Origin: Prevotella sp. E13-17
GTDB taxonomy: Bacteria; Bacteroidota; Bacteroidia; Bacteroidales; Bacteroidaceae
Assembly: GCF_022024035.1 (NCBI RefSeq)
Contig: NZ_CP091787.1
Location: 620,001-684,000 of the forward strand
DNA: 64,000 bases
Direction of reading: 5' to 3'
Position numbers and translations under genes: made by a program. Of the stretch, positions 6,162-64,000 are shown piece after piece. Numbering within the stretch: the first letter of the stretch is position 1; the number at the start of each line of letters is the position of its first letter. The notes beneath the pieces are model-generated. The model was given only the letters and a program-made list of their open reading frames with translations. It was not told where the DNA came from and did not search any database.

Positions 6162-7454
6162 ATGCAAAATCAAAGTAAAGGATTTATCTATTTCATCTGT
6201 ATGGTGTCTGCTATGGGCGGACTGCTTTTCGGATATGACTGGGTGGTGATTGGCGGTGCCAAGCCATTCTATGAACAGTTTTTTGGTATTGCAGACTCAC
6301 CGTTGATGCAAGGCGTAGCCATGACCTCGGCCTTGGTGGGCTGTCTGGCGGGCGCTATGGTTGCTGGTGCAGCTGCCGACAAGTTCGGACGCAAGCCGTT
6401 GCTTTTCGTCTCTGCAGTTCTTTTTACTGTTTCTGCTATTGCTACGGGCTTGTTTGATGACTTCACCCTATTTAATATAGCCCGCTTTGTGGGAGGTATG
6501 GGCATTGGTGTGGCCTCTGCTCTTGCCCCAATGTATATTGCCGAGGTCAGTCCGGCAGAGATACGTGGCCGCATGGTGAGCCTGAACCAGATGACCATCG
6601 TGCTGGGAATACTGGCAGCACAAATCGTCAACATGCTGTTAGCGCGCGATACGGCCGTTGCAGAGTGCATGGCATGGAACGTGGCGTGGGGCTGGCGCTG
6701 GATGTTTTGGGCAGAGACCTTGCCGGCAGCTCTGTTTCTGGTGATGAGCTGCATGATTCCAGAGAGTCCGGTGTATTTAGAATTGAAGAATGGAAGAATT
6801 GAAGGATTGAAATCTAAAGGAAAAAACTTCAATTCTTCAATCTTTCAACTTTTCAATTCTCCACAATACAGTAAGGTTCTGCTGCTTGGCCTGGTAATAG
6901 CCGTGTTCCAACAGTGGTGCGGTACCAATGTGATCTTCAACTATGCTCAAGAGATATTCATGGGTGCCGGGTTCGATGTGGATGGCATGTTCATCAATAT
7001 AGTGATTACCGGTGTGGCCAATGTGGTGTTTACCTTTGTAGCACTCTACACCATCGAGAAGTGGGGCCGGCGCACACTCATCCTGTTAGGCGCGGGCGGA
7101 CTGGCGCTGATCTACCTCACCCTGGGCACCTGCTACTACTACGAGGTCAAGGGCTTCGCCATGGTGTTACTGGTCGTGGCTGCCATTTCAGTCTATGCCA
7201 TGACCTTAGGCCCTGTGACGTGGACCCTGCTGGCAGAGATATTTCCGAACCGTATTCGCGGTGTGGCGATGTCTGTCTGTACGTTTGCCCTGTGGGTGGG
7301 CTGTTGCACACTCACCTTCTCGTTCCCCTCGATGAATGCAGCCCTAGGCAGTAGTGGCTCATTCTGGGTGTATGCCCTGATTTGCATATGTGCATTTGTT
7401 TTCCTGTATCGCCGCTGTCCGGAGACCAAAGGAAAGGTGTTGGCAGAAGAATAA
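6162..7454 (+). CDS. MFS sugar/proton symporter (sugar porter family)
   Basis: A 430-residue inner-membrane carrier with about 12 membrane segments. Sugar-porter family signatures are GGLLFGYDWVVIGG in the first helix, DKFGRKPLL after helix 2, PAEIRGRMVSLNQ, PESPVYLELK before the central loop and PETKGK at the C terminus. The adjacent rhamnosidase and regulator suggest L-rhamnose or a related deoxy- or pentose sugar as substrate, but this is inference. The central loop contains an unusual in-frame inverted-repeat insertion (about residues 207-234). A DUF5107-TPR gene follows 34 bp later in the same operon. Confidence 0.9.
   Translation: MQNQSKGFIYFICMVSAMGGLLFGYDWVVIGGAKPFYEQFFGIADSPLMQGVAMTSALVGCLAGAMVAGAAADKFGRKPLLFVSAVLFTVSAIATGLFDDFTLFNIARFVGGMGIGVASALAPMYIAEVSPAEIRGRMVSLNQMTIVLGILAAQIVNMLLARDTAVAECMAWNVAWGWRWMFWAETLPAALFLVMSCMIPESPVYLELKNGRIEGLKSKGKNFNSSIFQLFNSPQYSKVLLLGLVIAVFQQWCGTNVIFNYAQEIFMGAGFDVDGMFINIVITGVANVVFTFVALYTIEKWGRRTLILLGAGGLALIYLTLGTCYYYEVKGFAMVLLVVAAISVYAMTLGPVTWTLLAEIFPNRIRGVAMSVCTFALWVGCCTLTFSFPSMNAALGSSGSFWVYALICICAFVFLYRRCPETKGKVLAEE
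6781..6860 (+). repeat. In-frame imperfect inverted repeat of GAATTGAA-type words inside the transporter
   Basis: The left arm (6781-6811) consists of GAAGAATTGAAGGATTG-type words and the right arm (6828-6859) of the complementary words. The segment keeps the reading frame and adds roughly 28 residues (NGRIEGLKSKGKNFNSS...) to the cytosolic loop after PESPVYLELK. Base composition and word structure differ from the surrounding coding DNA. Confidence 0.75.
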
Positions 7455-7488
7455 CGAAGAATGATTAGATTAATGATAGAATAGAGTA

Positions 7489-10400
7489 ATGGTAAAAGCT
7501 TGGAGAGAAATGGTGACGATACCCACCTACGAGGTGGGACGTCCCGACAAGAACCCAATGTTCCTGGAGAAACGCGTGTACCAGGGTTCGAGTGGTGTGG
7601 TCTATCCTTATCCCGTCATAGAGAGTATCAGCAACGAGAAGGTGGACAAGGAGTACAAGGCTGTCTTTTTGGAAAACGAATACATCAAGGTGATGGTGTT
7701 GCCCGAACTGGGTGGCAGAGTGCAGATGGCCTACGACAAGATAGCCCAGCGCCACTTTGTCTATTATAACCATGTCATCAAGCCTGCATTGGTCGGACTG
7801 GTAGGCCCCTGGATATCTGGTGGCATAGAGTTCAACTGGCCCCAGCACCACCGTCCCACCACGTTTATGCCCGCCGACAGCACCATCGAGGAGTGTGAGG
7901 ACGGCTCGGTATGTGTGTGGGTGAGTGAGATGGAGAAAATGTTCCATCAGAAGGGAATGGCAGGATTTGTGCTGCGCCCAGGTTGTGCTTATCTGGAAAT
8001 ACGTGGTGTGCTGTATAACCGCACGGATGTGCCCCAGACTTTTCTGTGGTGGGCTAACCCCGCAGTAGAGGTCAACGATGCCTACCAATCGGTGTTTCCA
8101 CCCGATATCAATGCCGTGTTCGATCATGGCAAACGTGCCGTTTCGTCGTTCCCCATTGCCACGGGCATCTATTACAAGATGGACTATTCGGCAGGTGTGG
8201 ACATCTCGAACTATAAGAATATCTATGTACCCACATCCTATATGGGCGTGAATTCGCGCTATAACTTCGAGGGTGGCTATGAGAACGACACGAAGGCGGG
8301 CATGCTGCATGTGGCCAGTCACCACTTCTCGCCAGGTAAAAAACAGTGGACTTGGGGTAACGGCGACTTCGGACGCGCCTGGGACCGCAACCTCACCGAC
8401 GAGATTGTCGCCGACAAGGGTGATGAAACTTCTCACCTTTCACCTCTCACTTCTCACTTGAAAGAAGGCTTCCGGCCCTACATCGAACTGATGGCTGGCG
8501 TCTATACCGAGAACCAACCAGACTTTTCATGGCTGATGCCTTACGAGGAAAAGCATTTTGTGCAGTACTTTATGCCCTATCGTGAGTTGGGCATGGTGAA
8601 GGAAGCATCGAAAGATCTGTTGGTCAATGTTGATGTGACCGACGACGCACAGGGCGAACAAAAGACCGTCATGAAGGTGTTTGCCACATCTAGACAGCAG
8701 GTGAGACTGGTGCTTGAGACTGATGGCGGCGAGGTGCTCTATGACGAAGAAAGGGTGCTGACCCCCGAGGCGGTGTTGGTGGAGACCTTTCCGCTGACAG
8801 ACATGCAGACTCTGAACCTCAGAATATACAAGCGCATGTATAACAATACGGAGCGTTGTGTGTTACAGTGGCATGCTGAGCCCGATGAAATCAGACCTAT
8901 CCCCGACAGCGCTGAGGCTGCGCTGCTGCCCGAACAGATCAAGACCAACGAACAATTGTATCTCACAGGACTGCACTTGGAACAGTATCGCCATGCCACA
9001 TGGAACCCGTTGGACTACTATGAAGAGGCTCTGCGACGCGATCCTGACGATATTCGTTGCCTGAACGCCATGGGCTTGTGGTACATCCGCAAGGGCCGTT
9101 TTGCACTGGCAGAGGGCTATCTGAGAAAGGCCGTGAAGTTGTCGCAGAAGCGTAATCCCAATCCTTACGACAGTGAGCCCATCTATAATCTGGCATTGGC
9201 GCTGAAATATCAGCAACGCTACGATGAGGCCTATGAGCTGTTCTGGAAGGCTACCTGGAGCAAGGCCTGGGCAGATGCAGGCTTCTTTGAGGCAGCAAAG
9301 GTCAGCGCAAGACAGGGACGCTATGACGAGGCGATTGAAGAACTGGACCGCTCGCTGGCATACAATGCCCACAACCAGAAGGCGCTGGCACTGAAGGCTG
9401 CGGTGCTGCGTCGCATGGGTAAGACAGAGTGCGCCATCAGTGTATGTGAGACCGCACTGCAGACAGATCTGTTTAACTATGGTTGCCGCTACGAAAAGTA
9501 CCTCCTTACGGGCAGTAAAGTGGCACTTTGCGAACTGCAAAGCATGATGCAAGGATTGGCAAAGAACTATGATGAGTTGGCAATGGACTATCTGACGACT
9601 GGTTTCATCGACGAAGCACAGGCTGTCTGGCAGCTGGCCATCGAGGCAAAGGCTGTGACGCCCATGACCTATTATTATATGGGCTATGCCGCACATACGC
9701 AGAATGGCGATGATGCTCTTTACTTCAAACAGGCAGAACAGACATGCCCTGACTATTGCTTCCCTAACCGTCTGGAGGACGTTGTCGTGCTGGAAGAGGC
9801 AAAGAAGCATGGGTGTGCCATGGCTCCTTATTACCTGGGATGCCTGTATTATGCTGCACGACAGTATGACTTGGCTGTGGAAAACTGGGAGATGGCAAGC
9901 AAACGCAAACCAGACTTCCCGACAGTGTGGCGTAATCTGGCACTAGCTTATTTCAACAAGCAGCAACGAGAGGCGTTGGCTCTGGAATGTATGGAGCGCG
10001 CTTTCCATCTCGACGAGACGGATGCACGCGTGCTGATGGAACTGGATCAGCTCTACAAGCGTCTTCATCGTCCGCATCAGGAACGTCTGACGTTCTTGCA
10101 ACGCTATCCTCAACTGATTGCTCAACGTGACGATCTGGTGCTGGAGGAGATCACGCTGCTGAACCAGTTGGAACGCTATGAGGAGGCTATGCATAAGTTG
10201 GATGCACACATCTTCCACCCGTGGGAGGGCGGTGAAGGCAAGGTGCCAGCGCAATATCAGATTTGTCGTGTGGAGCGAGCTAAGCAGTTGCTGAAGGCAG
10301 ATCCACAGTCGGCCGAGGCAAAGCGACTGCTGGAGGAATGCTTGGTCTATCCTGCCCACTTGGGCGAGGGCAAGCTTTACGGTGCTCAGGATAATGACTT

Positions 10401-54535: not shown

Positions 54536-56656
54536 ATGAAAAAGCTATTATCTATTTTCACCCTGATGCTACTGATGTCAGCATCGGGCGCATGGGCGCA
54601 AGACGCCAAGCATTTGATTACGGCCACTTACCGCGAACAGACACGCTCGCTGGAGCAGCCGCTGCCCTACGCCACTACCATCGGCGCACTCTATGAGGCC
54701 GTTACGGGTGAACCCTTCAGTGATTTAATCAGCAGTATGTCCTCTGTTGGCATGCCTCTTACCGGAATCACCTCCCGCAACACCAGCGTCGTCAGCATTG
54801 GCGAATTAAACGGCGCAAGCACCCCGGTGACGGTTAATGCCGATGGCGAAACCATCATCAATTTAATTTTTGGTAATTATGCTCAAGGCATCTTAGTCAG
54901 CGCCATCTCCCCCCTCTACGCTTACGTGAAGGACGGCGTGAAGGATGCCGGCAAGTGGACGGTGAAGGTTGGCGAGGGCGAGGCCCAGTGGCTGCCCATC
55001 GGCGGACTGAAGGGCGACGGCTCGGAGACCGTGACGCTGCAGTACAACGGACGAATGAAGGTGAAGGGCGTCAAGGCTACAAGCGACGCGGCACCGGCTG
55101 AACCCAGCGTTCCCGACGGGGCCATCAACGGCAAGTTCAGCGTAAGCGATGGCAAGCAGGTTTATTTCTCGAAAGGTAACCTGCGTTACGCATCAGGCGC
55201 ATGGAGCTTCTTTGACAATCAGTACGACTACTACGCCACTTACAGCGCAGATGCGTGGGACAAGTTTGGCTGGAGCAATTCAACGAATAATTTCGGCATG
55301 AGCACTTCTACGGAAAATGCTGTTTATCAAGGCGACTTGGTTGACTGGGGTACTGTTCCTGGTATCGGCACAGGCTGGCGCACGCTGACCAAGGACGAGT
55401 GGAACTATCTGTTCATGACACGTGAAAGCGGCAGTAAAGTTAATGGCATGAGCCCCAGCCCTGATAACGCCCGATATACTCATGCTACCATTAACACAGA
55501 CAATGGAACCGGTGGTATTAGAGGTATGATATTGTTTCCTGACGGTGTGACGGTAAATTATAGCGATGCCACCTCCTGGGGAGGAATCAACCAATATAGT
55601 AATTGGAATGGTTCTACCAAATGTACAACAAGTCAGTGGAATGCTCTTGCAGCCAAGGGTTTCGTTTTCCTGCCCACCGGAGGTGTCAGAAATGGAACAA
55701 CAATTAGCAACTCCAACAATAACGGATACTATTGGTCATCATATACAGCCTCTCCTACCAGTGGATATGCTTACTACACTCGCGTAGTTGCTTCAACTGA
55801 GCCTACCACGGCCTACGATTCTCGCAAAATAGGTATCTCCGTGCGCCTGGTTCGCGAGGTGGCTACAAGCGACGCACCGGCGAAGGAACCGGCTACGGTG
55901 ACGACGGCGCCGACGGGTGCGGCGGGACTCACCACGGCGAGCGCTGTAACGGAGAAGCTGGCGACTGGGGGCGTGGCCGACGGCGGCACGCTGAAGTATG
56001 CCATTACCAGCACCACGACGCAGCCTGACGACGCAGCCTTCACATTAACAATATCGCCCACTGTGTCAGACTTGAAGACGGCTTTGAGCATGTCGACCCT
56101 CGCAGCTGGCACGTATTATGTGTGGTACAAGGTGTTTGCCGACGCTGATCACGCCGACAGCGAGGCTGCCTACGTGAGCGTGGCCGTGGCTCCGGCTGAG
56201 ACAACCGTCACCTGGAACAGCAGCAACATTGGTGGTAGTTACCCTAATGGCCTTTATGTCTCGGGCACCGACATGCCATATGAGAAGGAGGGCATCACGC
56301 TGAGTGGTAATGCCGACATGATACATGCCGAGTGGTATGATTATGGAGATCCGACGGAGGCTGGCATCTCTTTCAAGGTGTACGGATCCGGCGGCTTTAC
56401 CTTCACGGCACCGACCGGCAAGAAGTTCACAAAGATCGAGATGACGCTCACTAACGCTGCTGGATGGGACATTGCATATGAAGAAGAAAAACTCGGCACT
56501 GGATGGGCATTTAATATTGATTGGGAAACACGTATCCTTACAGTCACGTGGAAGGGCAGTGCCGCCGTCTCGACGGTTGGGCTGCTGACGGGCGCTAATG
56601 ATTTCAGCGGCGGACTGGTGAATAGCATCGTGTTCACGCTAGTGGATGCAGAGTAA
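54536..56656 (+). CDS. Secreted modular protein with a VYFSxGNLRY-type domain
   Basis: 706 residues with signal peptide MKKLLSIFTLMLLMSASGAW, cleaved after AWA-Q. After a unique N-terminal region comes a short module ending GRMKVKGVKA that recurs in later genes. The domain shared with the 29423 gene spans about residues 200-440 (GKFSVSDGKQVYFSKGNLRY, FGWSN, GWRTLTKDEWNYLFMTRES, GMILFPDGV, GYYWSSYTASP, ISVRLVRE). Ig-like segments and a beta-sandwich-like C terminus follow (GFTFTAPTGKKFTKIEMTL). No type IX tail is visible. It opens the modular secreted-protein cluster. Function unknown; surface or extracellular location is inferred. Confidence 0.8.
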   Translation: MKKLLSIFTLMLLMSASGAWAQDAKHLITATYREQTRSLEQPLPYATTIGALYEAVTGEPFSDLISSMSSVGMPLTGITSRNTSVVSIGELNGASTPVTVNADGETIINLIFGNYAQGILVSAISPLYAYVKDGVKDAGKWTVKVGEGEAQWLPIGGLKGDGSETVTLQYNGRMKVKGVKATSDAAPAEPSVPDGAINGKFSVSDGKQVYFSKGNLRYASGAWSFFDNQYDYYATYSADAWDKFGWSNSTNNFGMSTSTENAVYQGDLVDWGTVPGIGTGWRTLTKDEWNYLFMTRESGSKVNGMSPSPDNARYTHATINTDNGTGGIRGMILFPDGVTVNYSDATSWGGINQYSNWNGSTKCTTSQWNALAAKGFVFLPTGGVRNGTTISNSNNNGYYWSSYTASPTSGYAYYTRVVASTEPTTAYDSRKIGISVRLVREVATSDAPAKEPATVTTAPTGAAGLTTASAVTEKLATGGVADGGTLKYAITSTTTQPDDAAFTLTISPTVSDLKTALSMSTLAAGTYYVWYKVFADADHADSEAAYVSVAVAPAETTVTWNSSNIGGSYPNGLYVSGTDMPYEKEGITLSGNADMIHAEWYDYGDPTEAGISFKVYGSGGFTFTAPTGKKFTKIEMTLTNAAGWDIAYEEEKLGTGWAFNIDWETRILTVTWKGSAAVSTVGLLTGANDFSGGLVNSIVFTLVDAE

Positions 56657-58353: not shown

Positions 58354-60711
58354 ATGAGACAATTAAAGAACTTTTTGATTAAGCGAGAGCAAAGCCAAGC
58401 TTGCTTGAGCTTTGCCAAGCGTGAAAAAAGTCGGCTTTTAGCCAAAACATTACTGACGCTCGCACTGCTAATCACGGCCGCGACGGGCGCATGGGCCGAC
58501 CAGCTCGCGTCGTCATACTCGTCGAACGCGACGCTCAACGCAGTAACCGTGTCGGCTAGCATGGAAGTCACCATCGCCACCGGCGTGACCGTCACCATCA
58601 ACAACGGTCTCAACATCACCAGCGGCACACTCACCGTCAAAGGACCCGGCACGCTCGTCGTTAACGGCAAGGCCGGCAGCAACGGCGGCAACGGTGAGAC
58701 GGGCGGCAACGGCACCCCCGGCAGCGCAGCCATCACTGGCAACATCGTCGTACAGGACGGCGCCACCGTACAGGCTACTGGCGGTAAAGGCGGCAACGGC
58801 GGTGCTGGTGACCCGGAAAATGGTGGCCATGGCGCCAATGGTGCCGCAGCCATCAGTGGCAACGTCACCGTACAGGGTGGCGCTACCGTGAAAGCTACTG
58901 GCGGCAACGGCGGCAACGGCGGTTATTCCGAAGCGGAGAACGGCGGCAACGGCGGCAACGGCGGCAATGCCTTCGCAGGCACACTGACCTACAAGGGCGG
59001 CACCGTGACTGCCAACGGCGGCAACGGCGGCAGCAACGGCGGCAGCGACGGCGGCTGGGGCGGCAGCGGCGGCAGCGCAGGAAAAGCCTTTACCACCTCC
59101 GTGAACTTCGTGTCGTCTGATTACATCCTGACGGACGGCAGCAATGCAATCACTGACACTCAAGTCACAAGCAAGAAAAAGGTTGTCATCAGCCCGAAAG
59201 TCGCTGTCAACAGCGTGACGCTCGCGCCGACCTCGGCCACGCTGACCTTGGGCGAGACAGAGACGGTGACATTGACTGCCACCGTCGCCCCCAATGACGC
59301 TACGGACCCGACCGTGAAGTGGAACGTCACCGCGGGCGCCGAAAAGGTGAAGCTCTATAAGGACGAGAACTGCAGCACCGAGGTTGGCACAGCCGCCACC
59401 GACGTGCTCACCGTCTATGCCAAGGGCCTGGCAGTAGGAGAGGCCACCGTCACCGTCACCAGCAACGACGACGCGACGAAGACCGCCGCCTGCACCGTGA
59501 CAGTCATCCCCTCCGGCCCCGAGGTCGCCTGGAACAAGGCCAAGAAGACCGGCACGTTCACCATGCCCGGCGGCAACGTGACACTGGAGCCCGAGTACTA
59601 CCCACAGGCCGCGCTCACCGCAGCCCCCACCGCCATCAATGACGTGCCCGCCACCACCGACGGCGCCATCGTCAAAGCCGGCACCGTGGCCAACATCGGC
59701 GAGACCGAGACCGCACAGGGCACCGTGATGTACTACGTCAGCCAGACGGCCCTCGACGACGACGCCCTGCTGGCCCTCGCCGCTGACGCGTGGACAGCCG
59801 ACGTGCCCACCGCCAAGAGCCTCGCCCAGGGCCAGGCCTACATCTACTACTACGTGCGCGGCAACGACAGCGACACCGACGAAGAGAACTTCAGCGACGG
59901 CGACATCCTGGCCGCCAACGCCCTCACCGTCACCATCGCCGCCGAGCCCACCTACACCGTCACCTTCGCCGAGGGCACCGATCCCAACGAGTGGACCGCC
60001 AGCCCCAACGCCGACGTGAAGAAGGGCGAGACCGTCACCGTCACCTACAGCGGCACCCGCAGGGTCATGGGCGTGAAGGCCGAGAAGAAGGCTTCTGAGT
60101 CTCTCATCGTCAACCCCGTAGTGGGACAGATTATCGGCAGCGACGGCAAGAACTACGACGCTAATGCCACACTGCCCGACGGCGTGACCAAAGTGGCCAT
60201 GATAGCCTATGTGGGCAAAGATGCTGAAACCAGCACCACTTACAATCACGGCCTCGCCTTGGCACTGGAGGATGTAACCAGCACAGATATAAATTGGTGT
60301 TCTCAAACAAGCGTTACATGTTTAGGAACTCAATATGTTTATGATGATAATAGTAATACACAGTTCAAAGATTTGGCTGGCATTGCCAATACCGATGCGC
60401 TTGTAGGTCATGATTCGCATACTCATGCTGCAGCCAAGGCAGCCAGAGACTACAACAGCGGCACTCATCCCACAGGTACAAGCGCCTGGTTCCTGCCGAG
60501 TGCCGGTCAGTGGGATAAGATGGCTACCGCTGCAGGTAGTTATGCAAACCTGAAAACTAACGCGGGCTTGCAGGGGGGCAAATTCTCCGCCTACTGGTCT
60601 TCTACGGAGTGCGATACCGAACACGCGTGGTTCTTCTTCCCCGAGTACGGCGCTTGGAACCTCAACAATAAGGGCGGCGGCAACTTAGTTCGTGCCTGCC
60701 TCGCGTTCTAA
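58354..60711 (+). CDS. Secreted modular protein with glycine-rich GGNGG repeats and Ig-like domain
   Basis: 785 residues. The N terminus is longer than a usual signal peptide: about 28 basic residues encoded by a repeat element precede LLAKTLLTLALLITAATGAW (cleavage near AWA-D). Next are a beta region, a glycine/asparagine-rich segment (about 105-245; GGNGGNGG), an Ig-like Big_2-type domain (about 290-390; VTLAPTSATLTLGETETVTL), TFTMPGGNVTLEPEY, and the [20 protein letters not shown] module shared with the ubiquitin-domain protein. The C-terminal domain is FISUMP-like (WFLPSAGQWDKMATAAGSY, YWSSTECD, VRACLAF). No type IX tail is visible. Function unknown; probably extracellular. Confidence 0.8.
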   Translation: MRQLKNFLIKREQSQACLSFAKREKSRLLAKTLLTLALLITAATGAWADQLASSYSSNATLNAVTVSASMEVTIATGVTVTINNGLNITSGTLTVKGPGTLVVNGKAGSNGGNGETGGNGTPGSAAITGNIVVQDGATVQATGGKGGNGGAGDPENGGHGANGAAAISGNVTVQGGATVKATGGNGGNGGYSEAENGGNGGNGGNAFAGTLTYKGGTVTANGGNGGSNGGSDGGWGGSGGSAGKAFTTSVNFVSSDYILTDGSNAITDTQVTSKKKVVISPKVAVNSVTLAPTSATLTLGETETVTLTATVAPNDATDPTVKWNVTAGAEKVKLYKDENCSTEVGTAATDVLTVYAKGLAVGEATVTVTSNDDATKTAACTVTVIPSGPEVAWNKAKKTGTFTMPGGNVTLEPEYYPQAALTAAPTAINDVPATTDGAIVKAGTVANIGETETAQGTVMYYVSQTALDDDALLALAADAWTADVPTAKSLAQGQAYIYYYVRGNDSDTDEENFSDGDILAANALTVTIAAEPTYTVTFAEGTDPNEWTASPNADVKKGETVTVTYSGTRRVMGVKAEKKASESLIVNPVVGQIIGSDGKNYDANATLPDGVTKVAMIAYVGKDAETSTTYNHGLALALEDVTSTDINWCSQTSVTCLGTQYVYDDNSNTQFKDLAGIANTDALVGHDSHTHAAAKAARDYNSGTHPTGTSAWFLPSAGQWDKMATAAGSYANLKTNAGLQGGKFSAYWSSTECDTEHAWFFFPEYGAWNLNNKGGGNLVRACLAF
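58660..59085 (+). repeat. GGCGGCAAC-type coding repeats
   Basis: Highly repetitive GC-rich DNA encodes GGNGG and GGSGG runs and three copies of a longer unit with VQDGATVQATGGKGGNGGAG-like sequence. The repeat creates a long open frame on the opposite strand that is not a gene. Confidence 0.85.
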
Positions 60712-60893
60712 CCCCTCTCGCGCGTATATAATATAAAAGGTATAAAAGACTCTCCCCCGACCTTGAAGATTTTGTCCGCTTAAGGACTAAATCGCCTGTG
60801 GAGGGAGGGGAGTAGATAGAAAAGAAAGAAAACAATTAAACGAATAAATATTATGATACATAAATTTAGATATATATTGACGCTCGTCGCGCT
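60712..60893 (+). repeat. Leader and signal-peptide direct repeat, copy 1
   Basis: From CCCCTCTCGCGCGTATATAA through the first 13-14 codons of the ubiquitin-domain gene. It matches 62647-62801 almost exactly, except that a palindrome CCCCTCCCTGTGGAGGGAGG is replaced on its left side by about 33 bp containing TTGTCCGCTTAAGGAC. It includes the sequence AGAAAAGAAAGAAAACAATT before the start codon. Confidence 0.93.
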
Positions 60894-62646
60894 GCTACTG
60901 CTGGTTGCGGTACCGGCAAGCGCCATGCAGATATTCGTCAAGACGCTGACAGGTAAGACCATCACGCTTGACGTGGAAAATACCAACACCATCTTGGAAG
61001 TAAAAGGGATGATTGAGACCAAAGAGTCGATACCAACCGACATGCAGCGTCTTATCTTCGCAGGCAAGGAGCTTGAAGACTCGAAGACACTGAACGACTA
61101 CAACATCCAGAAGGAGTCGACCCTCCATCTTGTTTTTAAGTCCGACTACATCGAAGTCACCCCCGGCTCGTCCGCTAACACATGGACCTTCGCGATGCCC
61201 GGCAGCGACGTCGTGTTGACTCCTATCTATGCTCCTACCAAGGTGACCCTTGCTGCCAACGACAAGACAATGGGTACCGTAGAGGTTGCCGGCGAAAGCA
61301 AAGTGGAATGGACGGCTGAGACATGGAAGGGCTGGACGTCGGATATCAAGGAATATACCGTAGATGACATCACTATGACCAGCTCCGAGAGTGCACGTAT
61401 CCAAGAGTACATTTCCGAAGATAAGTATAATAATAGTCTTTTCTTCTTCGTTCGCAAGATGGTAAATGATGATGCCGTTACCTTCAGCACCACAGGCGAC
61501 CCCTTCAGCCGCATCGAATTCACGATGATTGGTGATTATTCTGAAAGAAACCCTGACATAATACCTAATGACAATTGGACCTTCGAGGGCAAGAGCGCCG
61601 TATGGGAAGGCGAAGCCACCAAGAGCCTCACGCTCCAGAGCTGCAGCACCAATGTCAGCAAGATTACATTCTACAAGGGTGCCACTCCCGACGGCGTGAC
61701 TATCAACGGCGACGACACATTCACCGTGGCCAAGACTGCCACCGTGACGCTGAAGGCTACACCTGCCGAGGGCTACAAGTTCCTGTACTGGGAGGATGAC
61801 CAGACCAACACCAACCCCGTTCGCGAAGTCACCATCGAGTCTGGCATGGCTGACATGACCTATAAGGCCGTGTTCGCAGAGATTCTTTACAACGTCACCT
61901 TCGCCGAGGGCACCGATCCCAACGAGTGGAGCGCCAGCCCCAACACCGACGTGAAGAAGGGCACCGCCGTCACCGTCACCTACACCGGCTCGAAGAAAGT
62001 CATCGTCGTGAAGGCGGAGAAGAAGAAGAGACCGGAATTCGTACCAGGCGCGACAATCCAGAATATAGAATCATTTGTCGAAGTCGAAAACAACAGGGAT
62101 GGCACCATCACCCTCCACATGCCTACGCTGAACCCGTCGACATACAATGTAACCGGCAGTGGTTTTAGCAATGGTGAACACACACTGCATTTCGGCTATG
62201 AAAAAGGTAGTGGCACAAATATGTCCCCTATCGGAGCGAATATCATTGAATATAGCTGGGCCGGCCATACGCCTTTCAGCGAACTGGACAAAACCATTGA
62301 CATTACTTCGGGGGAGCCGAGGGTGGCCATCCTGATTACAGGCCACGTACAATCTGCCACTTGTCCAGCGCCAGGCAAAGAACACTATTGGGGACTGTAC
62401 CGCTACACCAACCCCGTGAAGGTGACCTACAACCTGGGCGGCGGCAGCGTCAGTGGCTCCACTGCCGACAAGGTGGAATACCTCTTCAGCGGCGATGCCC
62501 TTGCCACCACTTTCGCAGCACCCACACGTGAGGGCTACACCTTCGACGGCTGGTACACCTCTGCTGAAGGCGGCACGAAACTTACCGCCAGCAACGCTAC
62601 CAGTGCCACCACCATCTACGCTCACTGGAACGCGATTGCCGAGTAA
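60853..62646 (+). CDS. Secreted protein with N-terminal eukaryote-like ubiquitin domain
   Basis: 597 residues. Signal peptide 1-24 ends VAVPASA, so the mature protein should start at the Met of [15 protein letters not shown], that is ubiquitin Met1. Residues 25-94 match human ubiquitin at 53 of 70 positions by hand; then the sequence departs (VFKSDYIEV) without Gly-Gly. After this come [16 protein letters not shown], a unique beta-rich region (about 125-270), an InlB/Ig-like segment ([15 protein letters not shown]), the [20 protein letters not shown] module, a second unique domain and a C-terminal InlB repeat ([24 protein letters not shown]). The closest described case I know is the secreted ubiquitin BfUbb of Bacteroides fragilis, which is a stand-alone domain. 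Role unknown; interference with host ubiquitin pathways or with rival bacteria is possible. Confidence 0.93.
60925..61134 (+). other. Ubiquitin-like domain (ubiquitin residues 1-70)
   Basis: Compared with human ubiquitin, the first 15 residues are identical and the segment [12 protein letters not shown] is identical. Conserved are Lys6, 11, 27, 33, 48 and 63 and the hydrophobic patch Leu8, Ile44, Val70. Lys29 is Met. Differences cluster at 19-21, 24-25, 28-32 and 71-76. Codon use looks like the surrounding genes, so any transfer from a eukaryote would be old. Confidence 0.95.
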
Positions 62647-62801
62647 CCCCCTCTCGCGCGTATATAATATAAAAGGTATAAAAGACTCTCCCCCGACCCC
62701 TCCCTGTGGAGGGAGGGGAGTAGATAGAAAAGAAAGAAAACAATTAAACGAATAAATATTATGATACATAAATTTAGATATATATTGACGCTCGTCGCGC
62801 T
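62647..62801 (+). repeat. Leader and signal-peptide direct repeat, copy 2
   Basis: Second copy of the block at 60712-60893, in the same orientation, starting directly after the ubiquitin-gene stop codon. It includes the start codon and the first 13-14 codons ([14 protein letters not shown]) of the next gene. The distance between copies is about 1.93 kb, one full gene. Confidence 0.93.
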
Positions 62802-64000
62802 CTTTGCAATGACCGCGGGCGCGTGGGCACAAAGCTACGAAGCCAAAGTCTTTGACGTTCCCGCTTCGTGGGCAGAAGACCAGACTAAATTATCGGCTGC
62901 CGACCTGCCGAAAGACTTTGTGCAGATAACCAAAGAAGAGGCAAAGGCGCTGGCCGTTCCAGATGGCTCTGTTATTCTCATCTATGGTTTTGAGGGCGAA
63001 AATGTTAAAGTGTTGATATTTAGTAGTGGCACTCTTGCCGATGAGGATGAAGCTCCAGAAGTCAGGGGAATGTTTAGAATGTATCAGACAGATGCTAATA
63101 TTATAATCTGCTATCCCGCCCCCGGCGGTCCCAAGGTCGCTTGGAACGCTGCAAACAAGACCGGCACCTTCACGATGCCCGGCAGCGACGTGGTGCTGAC
63201 ACCCATCTACGCCAAGACAGCCGCATTCGCCACCACGGGCACCGAGCCCGAAGTGAAGACGCTCCTGCCCGAAGCCGCTGAAGGCGTCATCGCCGGCACC
63301 GACGCATCGCTCATCGCCGAGGGCACCGGCATCGTGGCCTTCGCCGGAACGAGCACCGAGGATACGCAGGGCACGCTGATGTACGCCATCGGCACCTCAG
63401 CCACCGAGGCCCCAGCACTCACCGCATTCAGCGCCACAGTGCCCACAGCCGAGAACGTCGCTGACGACGGAGGAAATGTCTATGTATGGTACTACATCAA
63501 GGGCGTCGACGCCCCCGAGGGTGTAGCCGCCACGCTCGACAACACCTTCGAAAACACCGAGCCCGCCTGCCTCACCGTCACCGTGCTCACCAACAAGTTC
63601 GACATCACCTTCAACGCCGCCAACGCCAACACCATCGAGGCAGGCAAGGCTACCGTTACTGTAGGTGGCACAGCCGCCACCGTCACCGAGGGTAAGCTCG
63701 AGGGCGTGAAGATGGGCAGCGAGGTGAAGGTCAAAGCCAACACCGGCTACAAGTTCCGCAAGGTGGAGGTGAAGAAGGGCGGAGCGAAGCCCACGCTGGC
63801 TGCTACCTTGACCACCGCCGGCATGACCGTGAAGGTGTCATTCCTTTTGGTTGGTAACGCAGAAACCGTGAACTTCACCAGCAACGGCGACGGCACGTAC
63901 ACTAAAACGGGTGGCACAGGAACTACTGCAACTGCCCCTGACTGGATCATACAGTTGGTCGAAAATAGCGGCATGATTGTCTTCAAAGCATATCCAAACG
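62761..64000 (+). CDS. Secreted modular protein, paralogous leader (3' end outside window)
   Basis: At least 413 residues, open to the window edge. Signal peptide [20 protein letters not shown] then AWA-Q; its first 14 residues are identical to those of the ubiquitin-domain protein. A unique N-terminal domain (about 25-120) contains no ubiquitin. The shared [18 protein letters not shown] follows at about residue 139, then an Ig-like region with AGTSTEDTQGTLMYAIGT, similar to the ETETAQGTVMYYVSQT region of the 58354 gene, and InlB-like VKANTGYKFRKVEVKKGG. It is a third member of the cluster with a swapped N-terminal module. Function unknown. Confidence 0.85.
   Translation, partial: MIHKFRYILTLVALFAMTAGAWAQSYEAKVFDVPASWAEDQTKLSAADLPKDFVQITKEEAKALAVPDGSVILIYGFEGENVKVLIFSSGTLADEDEAPEVRGMFRMYQTDANIIICYPAPGGPKVAWNAANKTGTFTMPGSDVVLTPIYAKTAAFATTGTEPEVKTLLPEAAEGVIAGTDASLIAEGTGIVAFAGTSTEDTQGTLMYAIGTSATEAPALTAFSATVPTAENVADDGGNVYVWYYIKGVDAPEGVAATLDNTFENTEPACLTVTVLTNKFDITFNAANANTIEAGKATVTVGGTAATVTEGKLEGVKMGSEVKVKANTGYKFRKVEVKKGGAKPTLAATLTTAGMTVKVSFLLVGNAETVNFTSNGDGTYTKTGGTGTTATAPDWIIQLVENSGMIVFKAYPN

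Follow-up and report, generated by a model that had tools for sequence, protein, structure and literature searches.

A ubiquitin heading a predicted exported, modular protein of Prevotella sp. E13-17, and its recurrence behind signal peptides in prokaryotes

The window analysed here, a stretch of 64,000 nucleotides, belongs to a genome of Prevotella sp. E13-17 that consists of one contig of 3,454,626 bases and is 99.71% complete. Towards the end of the window lies a gene (60853..62646, + strand) for a protein of 597 amino acids composed of a signal peptide, a ubiquitin and a repeat-containing tail. The Sec-type signal peptide (60853..60924, +; residues 1-24) is assigned by hydrophobicity and the AxA rule and ends in A-S-A. 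It is directly abutted, without a linker, by Met1 of ubiquitin, whose residues 1-72 (60925..61140, +; protein residues 25-96) are identified by PF00240, PDB sequence matches and structure comparison. The tail of about 500 residues begins with a segment (61141..61722, +) without Pfam family that contains a 16-residue module, and further on carries an InlB-type repeat (PF18998; 61723..61881, +; residues 291-343) and a Listeria-Bacteroides repeat (PF09479; 62419..62625, +; residues 523-591), each the best of two stretches.

A preliminary description, made from the letters alone, had proposed a ubiquitin between a Sec signal peptide and an InlB-type tail, and this is borne out: the head is identical to human ubiquitin at 53 of 70 positions and matches PF00240 with 89.4 bits against a curated cut-off of 25.4 (Pfam, E 1.3e-25). 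Structure prediction, which the same description had called for, yields a beta-grasp head that superposes on solved ubiquitins; the AF2 model is unreliable beyond this part. The architecture also differs, as had been suggested, from that of stand-alone BfUbb, since the predicted mature part has 573 residues (about 76 in the BfUbb type). As to an exported modular protein at the surface, export is predicted from the sequence rule for the signal peptide; for surface location, neither an anchor for the outer membrane nor a sorting model of the T9SS was matched in the protein with Pfam and NCBIfam. Judged by its sequence, the window protein carries a true ubiquitin, more than a ubiquitin-like fold, at its predicted mature N terminus.

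The gene sits within a + strand run of modular exported proteins. It is preceded by one of 785 amino acids (58354..60711, +) and followed by a gene (62761..64000, +) that extends beyond the window, encodes 467 amino acids in total, and has the same signal-peptide start without ubiquitin. The 16-residue tail module recurs nearly unchanged in this next gene. A segment of 84 bases comprising leader and signal-peptide start (60810..60893, +) is identical to a second copy that precedes the next gene (62718..62801, +), these being the two 100% matches genome-wide; the shared leader thus stands before two neighbouring genes whose N-terminal domains differ, as if copied along the array. The array includes a further protein of this modular exported type (54536-56656), which matches FISUMP below threshold (TIGR02145, 22.3 bits against a cut-off of 41.65), and two more lie just beyond the window (L108:218-1882 and L108:2027-5578); their ends, GKKVVIK and GKKVVVK, resemble T9SS sorting signals, unlike that of the ubiquitin protein. 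Within its own genome the gene is the sole PF00240 match; PF00179 (E2) gave no match there, nor did it in control genomes, and PF00856 (SET) was not found in the genome.

Of 398 genomes sampled from the genus, 14 contain a PF00240 match; for the family the figure is 5 of 301, with 4 above the cut-off, and for the phylum 6 of 395, the genome of the window included each time. Scanning one genome per species returned 382 stretches encoding a ubiquitin relative, the best 80 of which were combined with the genus loci into a set of 95; these 80 were picked by similarity to the window, so that conservation within the set is biased upwards. Ubiquitin Met1 is immediately preceded by hydrophobic residues and a cleavage site of the AxA type in 82 of the 95 loci, and in 78 of 90 distinct loci after removal of five duplicate contigs (L016, L018, L019, L026 and L059; L097 was dropped later), whereas the control, internal methionines at positions 18-45 of neighbouring ORFs, satisfied the same rule in 31 of 369 cases. 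Twelve loci fail the rule: seven have no signal peptide (L023, L025, L027, L042, L055, L060 and L088) and five fail narrowly, namely L003, L008 and L015 with Met at -3, L065, which ends in ADAS, and L044, which is broken, beginning 164 bases from the contig end with its upstream portion cut off. In the phylum sample, which was drawn independently of similarity to the window and searched by profile, all 5 other positive genomes were seen by eye to encode a signal peptide followed by linker-free ubiquitin (L100-L105).

According to NCBI labels, the rows of the ubiquitin tree come from ten bacterial phyla (Bacteroidota, Bacillota, Pseudomonadota, Verrucomicrobiota, Actinomycetota, Cyanobacteriota, Planctomycetota, Thermodesulfobacteriota, Myxococcota and Lindowiibacteriota) and from the archaeal Methanotrichaceae. 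The archaeal rows and many others are MAGs; 16 signal-peptide loci belong to strain-named records without a MAG label, among them Ruminococcus albus 8, Xylanibacter ruminicola Ga6B6, Cohnella sp. REN36, Rhodoferax lacus, Pseudohaliea rubra, two Conexibacter, two Dyella and the complete genome of Verrucomicrobia bacterium IMCC26134. When the whole window protein was searched, the named matches noticed among the best 120 of 4723, besides the query's own entry, were ubiquitin or polyubiquitin; polyubiquitins dominated this search, which makes it unsuited to counting architectures. Tandem pairs of signal-peptide-ubiquitin genes occur in three genomes (L038:5929-6639 and 6998-7708; L045:5926-6489 and 6489-7040; L103/L105). 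Eight ubiquitin loci lie on contigs with a viral classification; in five of them (L110, L114-L117) the ubiquitin follows a signal peptide, and L114-L116 run on, by eye, into an IPTL-like tail, so that these contigs may be bacterial or prophage.

In the window head the I44 face (L8, I44, H68, V70) is intact, and the LRGG tail is absent, residue 70 being followed by FKSDYIEV. Positions were compared over 79 heads, a set that omits duplicates, loci without signal peptide, and L012-L015, L096 and L098 as divergent or bearing indels. The 13 distinct Prevotella heads are identical to human ubiquitin at 47-57 of 72 positions, with changes concentrated at 16-40 and 49-57 and K29 replaced by Met in 8 of them; K6, K11, K27, K33 and K63 are kept in all 13 and K48 in 11, and on the I44 face L8 is kept in 12, I44 in 11, H68 in 10 and V70 in 9. 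The 66 other distinct heads, drawn from the similarity-biased set, share 58-71 of 72 positions with human ubiquitin (median 66); all 66 keep L8 and H68, and 64 keep I44. LRGG occupies positions 73-76 in 4 of the 79 heads, of which L032 and L039 end there and L046 and L074 run on past it. Strongly diverged heads of the same family are found in L098, L010 and L014; L098 has lost I44 and is changed at 45-49, and the binding face is thus not universal.

What follows the ubiquitin varies widely. Thirty-one signal-peptide-ubiquitin proteins were scanned against Pfam, and ten, seven of them shared, against NCBIfam; a further module exceeded the cut-off in 20 of the 31. In 11 of the 31 this was a recognised surface-attachment module, that is, an autotransporter barrel in five (L021, L057, L073, L077, L083), IPTL-CTERM in four (L067, L075 and L087, with L022 by NCBIfam), a dockerin in L056, and SLH accompanied by cadherin-like and fn3 domains in L093. 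Other proteins carry Listeria-Bacteroides or InlB repeats (the window protein, L010 and L031), CBM_X2 with a sub-threshold dockerin (L043), BspA leucine-rich repeats (L012), SdrD_B and DUF11 (L076), YDG/MBG (L048), beta-helix and X25 (L040) or Ig_7 (L038), and the remaining 11 show no further module (L003, L005, L007, L017, L020, L026, L035, L046, L068, L089, L095). Some forms are nearly reduced to signal peptide, ubiquitin and anchor, with 135 amino acids in L022, 129 in L075 and 190 in L056. In the model of L021 (mean pLDDT 76.7) ubiquitin is followed by a helix (102-125) and a set of strands (140-405), an arrangement that resembles an autotransporter carrying ubiquitin as its sole passenger. 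No NCBIfam model of T9SS sorting matched in eight relatives of the window protein; the tails of L002, L005, L008 and L009, such as GVFIVNGKKVLMK, nevertheless resemble a T9SS sorting domain. The same head on unrelated anchors and stalks speaks for ubiquitin as the cargo, which the remainder of the protein would serve to position.

The third-position GC content (GC3) of ubiquitin tracks that of the rest of its own gene (r 0.89, n 92, range 0.17-1.00) in a set that still includes duplicates and most loci without signal peptide. Contamination is likely for L027, a head-to-tail polyubiquitin, and possible for L023, L025, L042, L055, L060 and L088, all without signal peptide; for the remaining loci it was set aside because their ubiquitin GC3 is host-like. 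In deep pairs of the same architecture, ubiquitin is much better conserved than the tail (pN 0.01-0.08 against 0.26-0.51), with synonymous sites near saturation: pN is 0.04 against 0.51 for L037-L073 (306 tail codons), 0.08 against 0.26 for L021-L029 (310 codons), 0.06 against 0.46 for L056-L070 (64 codons) and 0.012, at pS 0.98, against 0.50 over just 33 tail codons for L063-L071. This contrast is not clear in close pairs, where ubiquitin and tail have dN/dS values of 0.13 and 0.11 (L044-L057) or dN values of 0.043 and 0.029 (L029-L069), respectively, or ubiquitin dN reaches 0.057 at a dS of 0.04 (L005-L011).

Among Prevotella relatives, whose tails were aligned mechanically, homologous or not, so that tail distances are rough, the dS values of ubiquitin and tail disagree (0.13 and 1.35 for L001-L007, 0.39 and 0.17 for L007-L017, 0.04 and 1.18 for L005-L011), and on account of this discordance the head looks like a shuffled module. 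The tree, built on 72 columns with 17 of 101 inner branches starred, has a single starred branch that unites 12 of the 13 heads from Prevotella, and leaves L010 outside on a long branch. Bacterial and eukaryotic ubiquitins interleave in it, and its poor resolution does not allow the number of transfers to be read; repeated fresh acquisition from eukaryotes is compatible with it.

Clustering of 627 ORFs from 74 loci for shared neighbours disclosed no shared immunity-like neighbour. The largest cluster (14 loci) was dropped, as it mixed ORFs antisense over ubiquitin genes (e.g. L023, L035, L089) with a sensor protein of L019. A family of 330-aa proteins adjoins the ubiquitin gene in 5 of the 74 loci (L073:7195-8190, +; L037:426-1433, -; L050:200-1186, -; L067:4785-5777, +; L078:4765-5754, -), its members being 31-43% identical to the L073 copy. 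By eye its GxGLF...ELINHS motif looks SET-like, an identity to which profile searches of Pfam, NCBIfam and PDB lent no support.

An exported stand-alone ubiquitin, BfUbb, is already known, and it is the breadth over phyla and anchors that is surprising here. BfUbb is described as exported, beginning at ubiquitin residue 1, devoid of the terminal glycine and antagonistic to B. fragilis strains, and its authors count B. fragilis among few bacteria with such a protein (PMC5705921). Recombinant BfUbb bound human E1 covalently (PMC3352274), so the pathway of the host might conceivably be affected even without diGly. BfUbb is the sole bacterial relative with tested activity found in the open-licence literature, and its antagonism was measured. 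As in BfUbb, residue 1 of ubiquitin would, by the sequence rule, become the mature N terminus of the window protein, but BfUbb stands alone (PDB 8hm2), and the window head is about 70% identical to eukaryotic ubiquitins (67-74% over the plain ubiquitins compared) and 49% to BfUbb (8hm2_B). An effector of the nematode Globodera rostochiensis, to which the BfUbb authors liken their protein, likewise consists of signal peptide, ubiquitin and C-terminal part, its ubiquitin being exported towards another organism; its extension of 12 amino acids is released from ubiquitin in the plant (PMC5705921). That protein is eukaryotic; in the window protein a long tail follows the ubiquitin, with no diGly at which it could be cleaved off. 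The exported modular tail is shared with proteins of the Listeria-Bacteroides and InlB-type repeat class (PF09479, PF18998); the neighbouring genes show no ubiquitin, which the window protein bears at its N terminus. The open-licence literature yielded no account of a ubiquitin joined to surface anchors of bacteria, and a term search of PMC8286594 gave no mention of ubiquitin.

We favour, at somewhat less than even confidence, the reading that the window protein acts extracellularly, as a ligand or decoy bound by ubiquitin-binding proteins of eukaryotes, those of protists, for example, which are the likeliest among eukaryotic targets. The signal peptide would export the protein, cleavage would free ubiquitin Met1 as the N terminus, and the tail may serve to place the ubiquitin, e.g. 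by display on the surface. With LRGG missing and given the known chemistry of the pathway, neither charging by E1 nor release by deubiquitinases is expected; such a non-conjugatable ubiquitin would work by being bound, not conjugated. A partner that recognises eukaryotic ubiquitin is the simplest explanation for a near-eukaryotic sequence without conjugation tail. A little more tentatively still, display of exported ubiquitin may be common to bacteria and archaea of many phyla: a true ubiquitin, held as the free N terminus, in most cases devoid of the conjugation tail and carried by the anchor customary in each lineage, would mimic the eukaryotic protein and engage whatever binds ubiquitin in grazing protists or in hosts. 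Several record titles mention the rumen, the gut or faeces, and Prochlorococcus is among the genera that point to water; these are places with protists or hosts, in line with a eukaryotic target, although suggestive only. Against the ligand or decoy reading count the patchy presence within the genus, the faster drift of Prevotella heads, the loss of I44 in L098, the conservation inflated by choosing the 80 loci for similarity and the large share of MAG rows, and it is weakened by the want of a matched surface anchor in the window protein and of a clear excess of constraint on ubiquitin over the tail in close pairs.

The head might instead act as BfUbb does, on a target in related bacteria, and the tails might deliver it or bring about contact, which we consider unlikely but worth weighing: order and export design are those of BfUbb and patchy presence suits a competition gene, yet the window head is closer to eukaryotic ubiquitin than to BfUbb, and fixed autotransporter, S-layer or exosortase anchoring suits a diffusible toxin poorly. 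The absence of a common immunity-like neighbour also speaks against it, though no immunity protein is considered necessary for BfUbb (PMC5705921). Less probable again is a role without specific partner, in which a compact, very stable fold protects or presents the N terminus of exported proteins. The stability of ubiquitin is well known, and the domain always occupies the predicted mature N terminus ahead of unrelated tails; however, near-eukaryotic surface residues, as in the 66 heads of the biased set, would be unneeded, and short forms such as L022 and L075 leave little to protect. Contamination, or recent unselected acquisition of eukaryotic ubiquitin genes, to which L027, the six further loci without signal peptide and the interleaved tree lend some colour, is very improbable and disfavoured for the window, given its one-contig genome, the concordant GC3, signal peptides fused in frame, one-architecture families with strongly diverged tails and the 16 strain-named loci.

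Ubiquitin, a protein tag familiar above all from animals, plants, fungi and protists, is treated as a hallmark of eukaryotes, and BfUbb as a rare bacterial exception. If the arrangement is recurrent, prokaryotes would repeatedly use ubiquitin itself outside the cell, and not just enzymes that act on it. This raises the testable question of what recognises ubiquitin outside a bacterium, and implies that bacterial ubiquitin matches in databases should not all be discarded as contamination.
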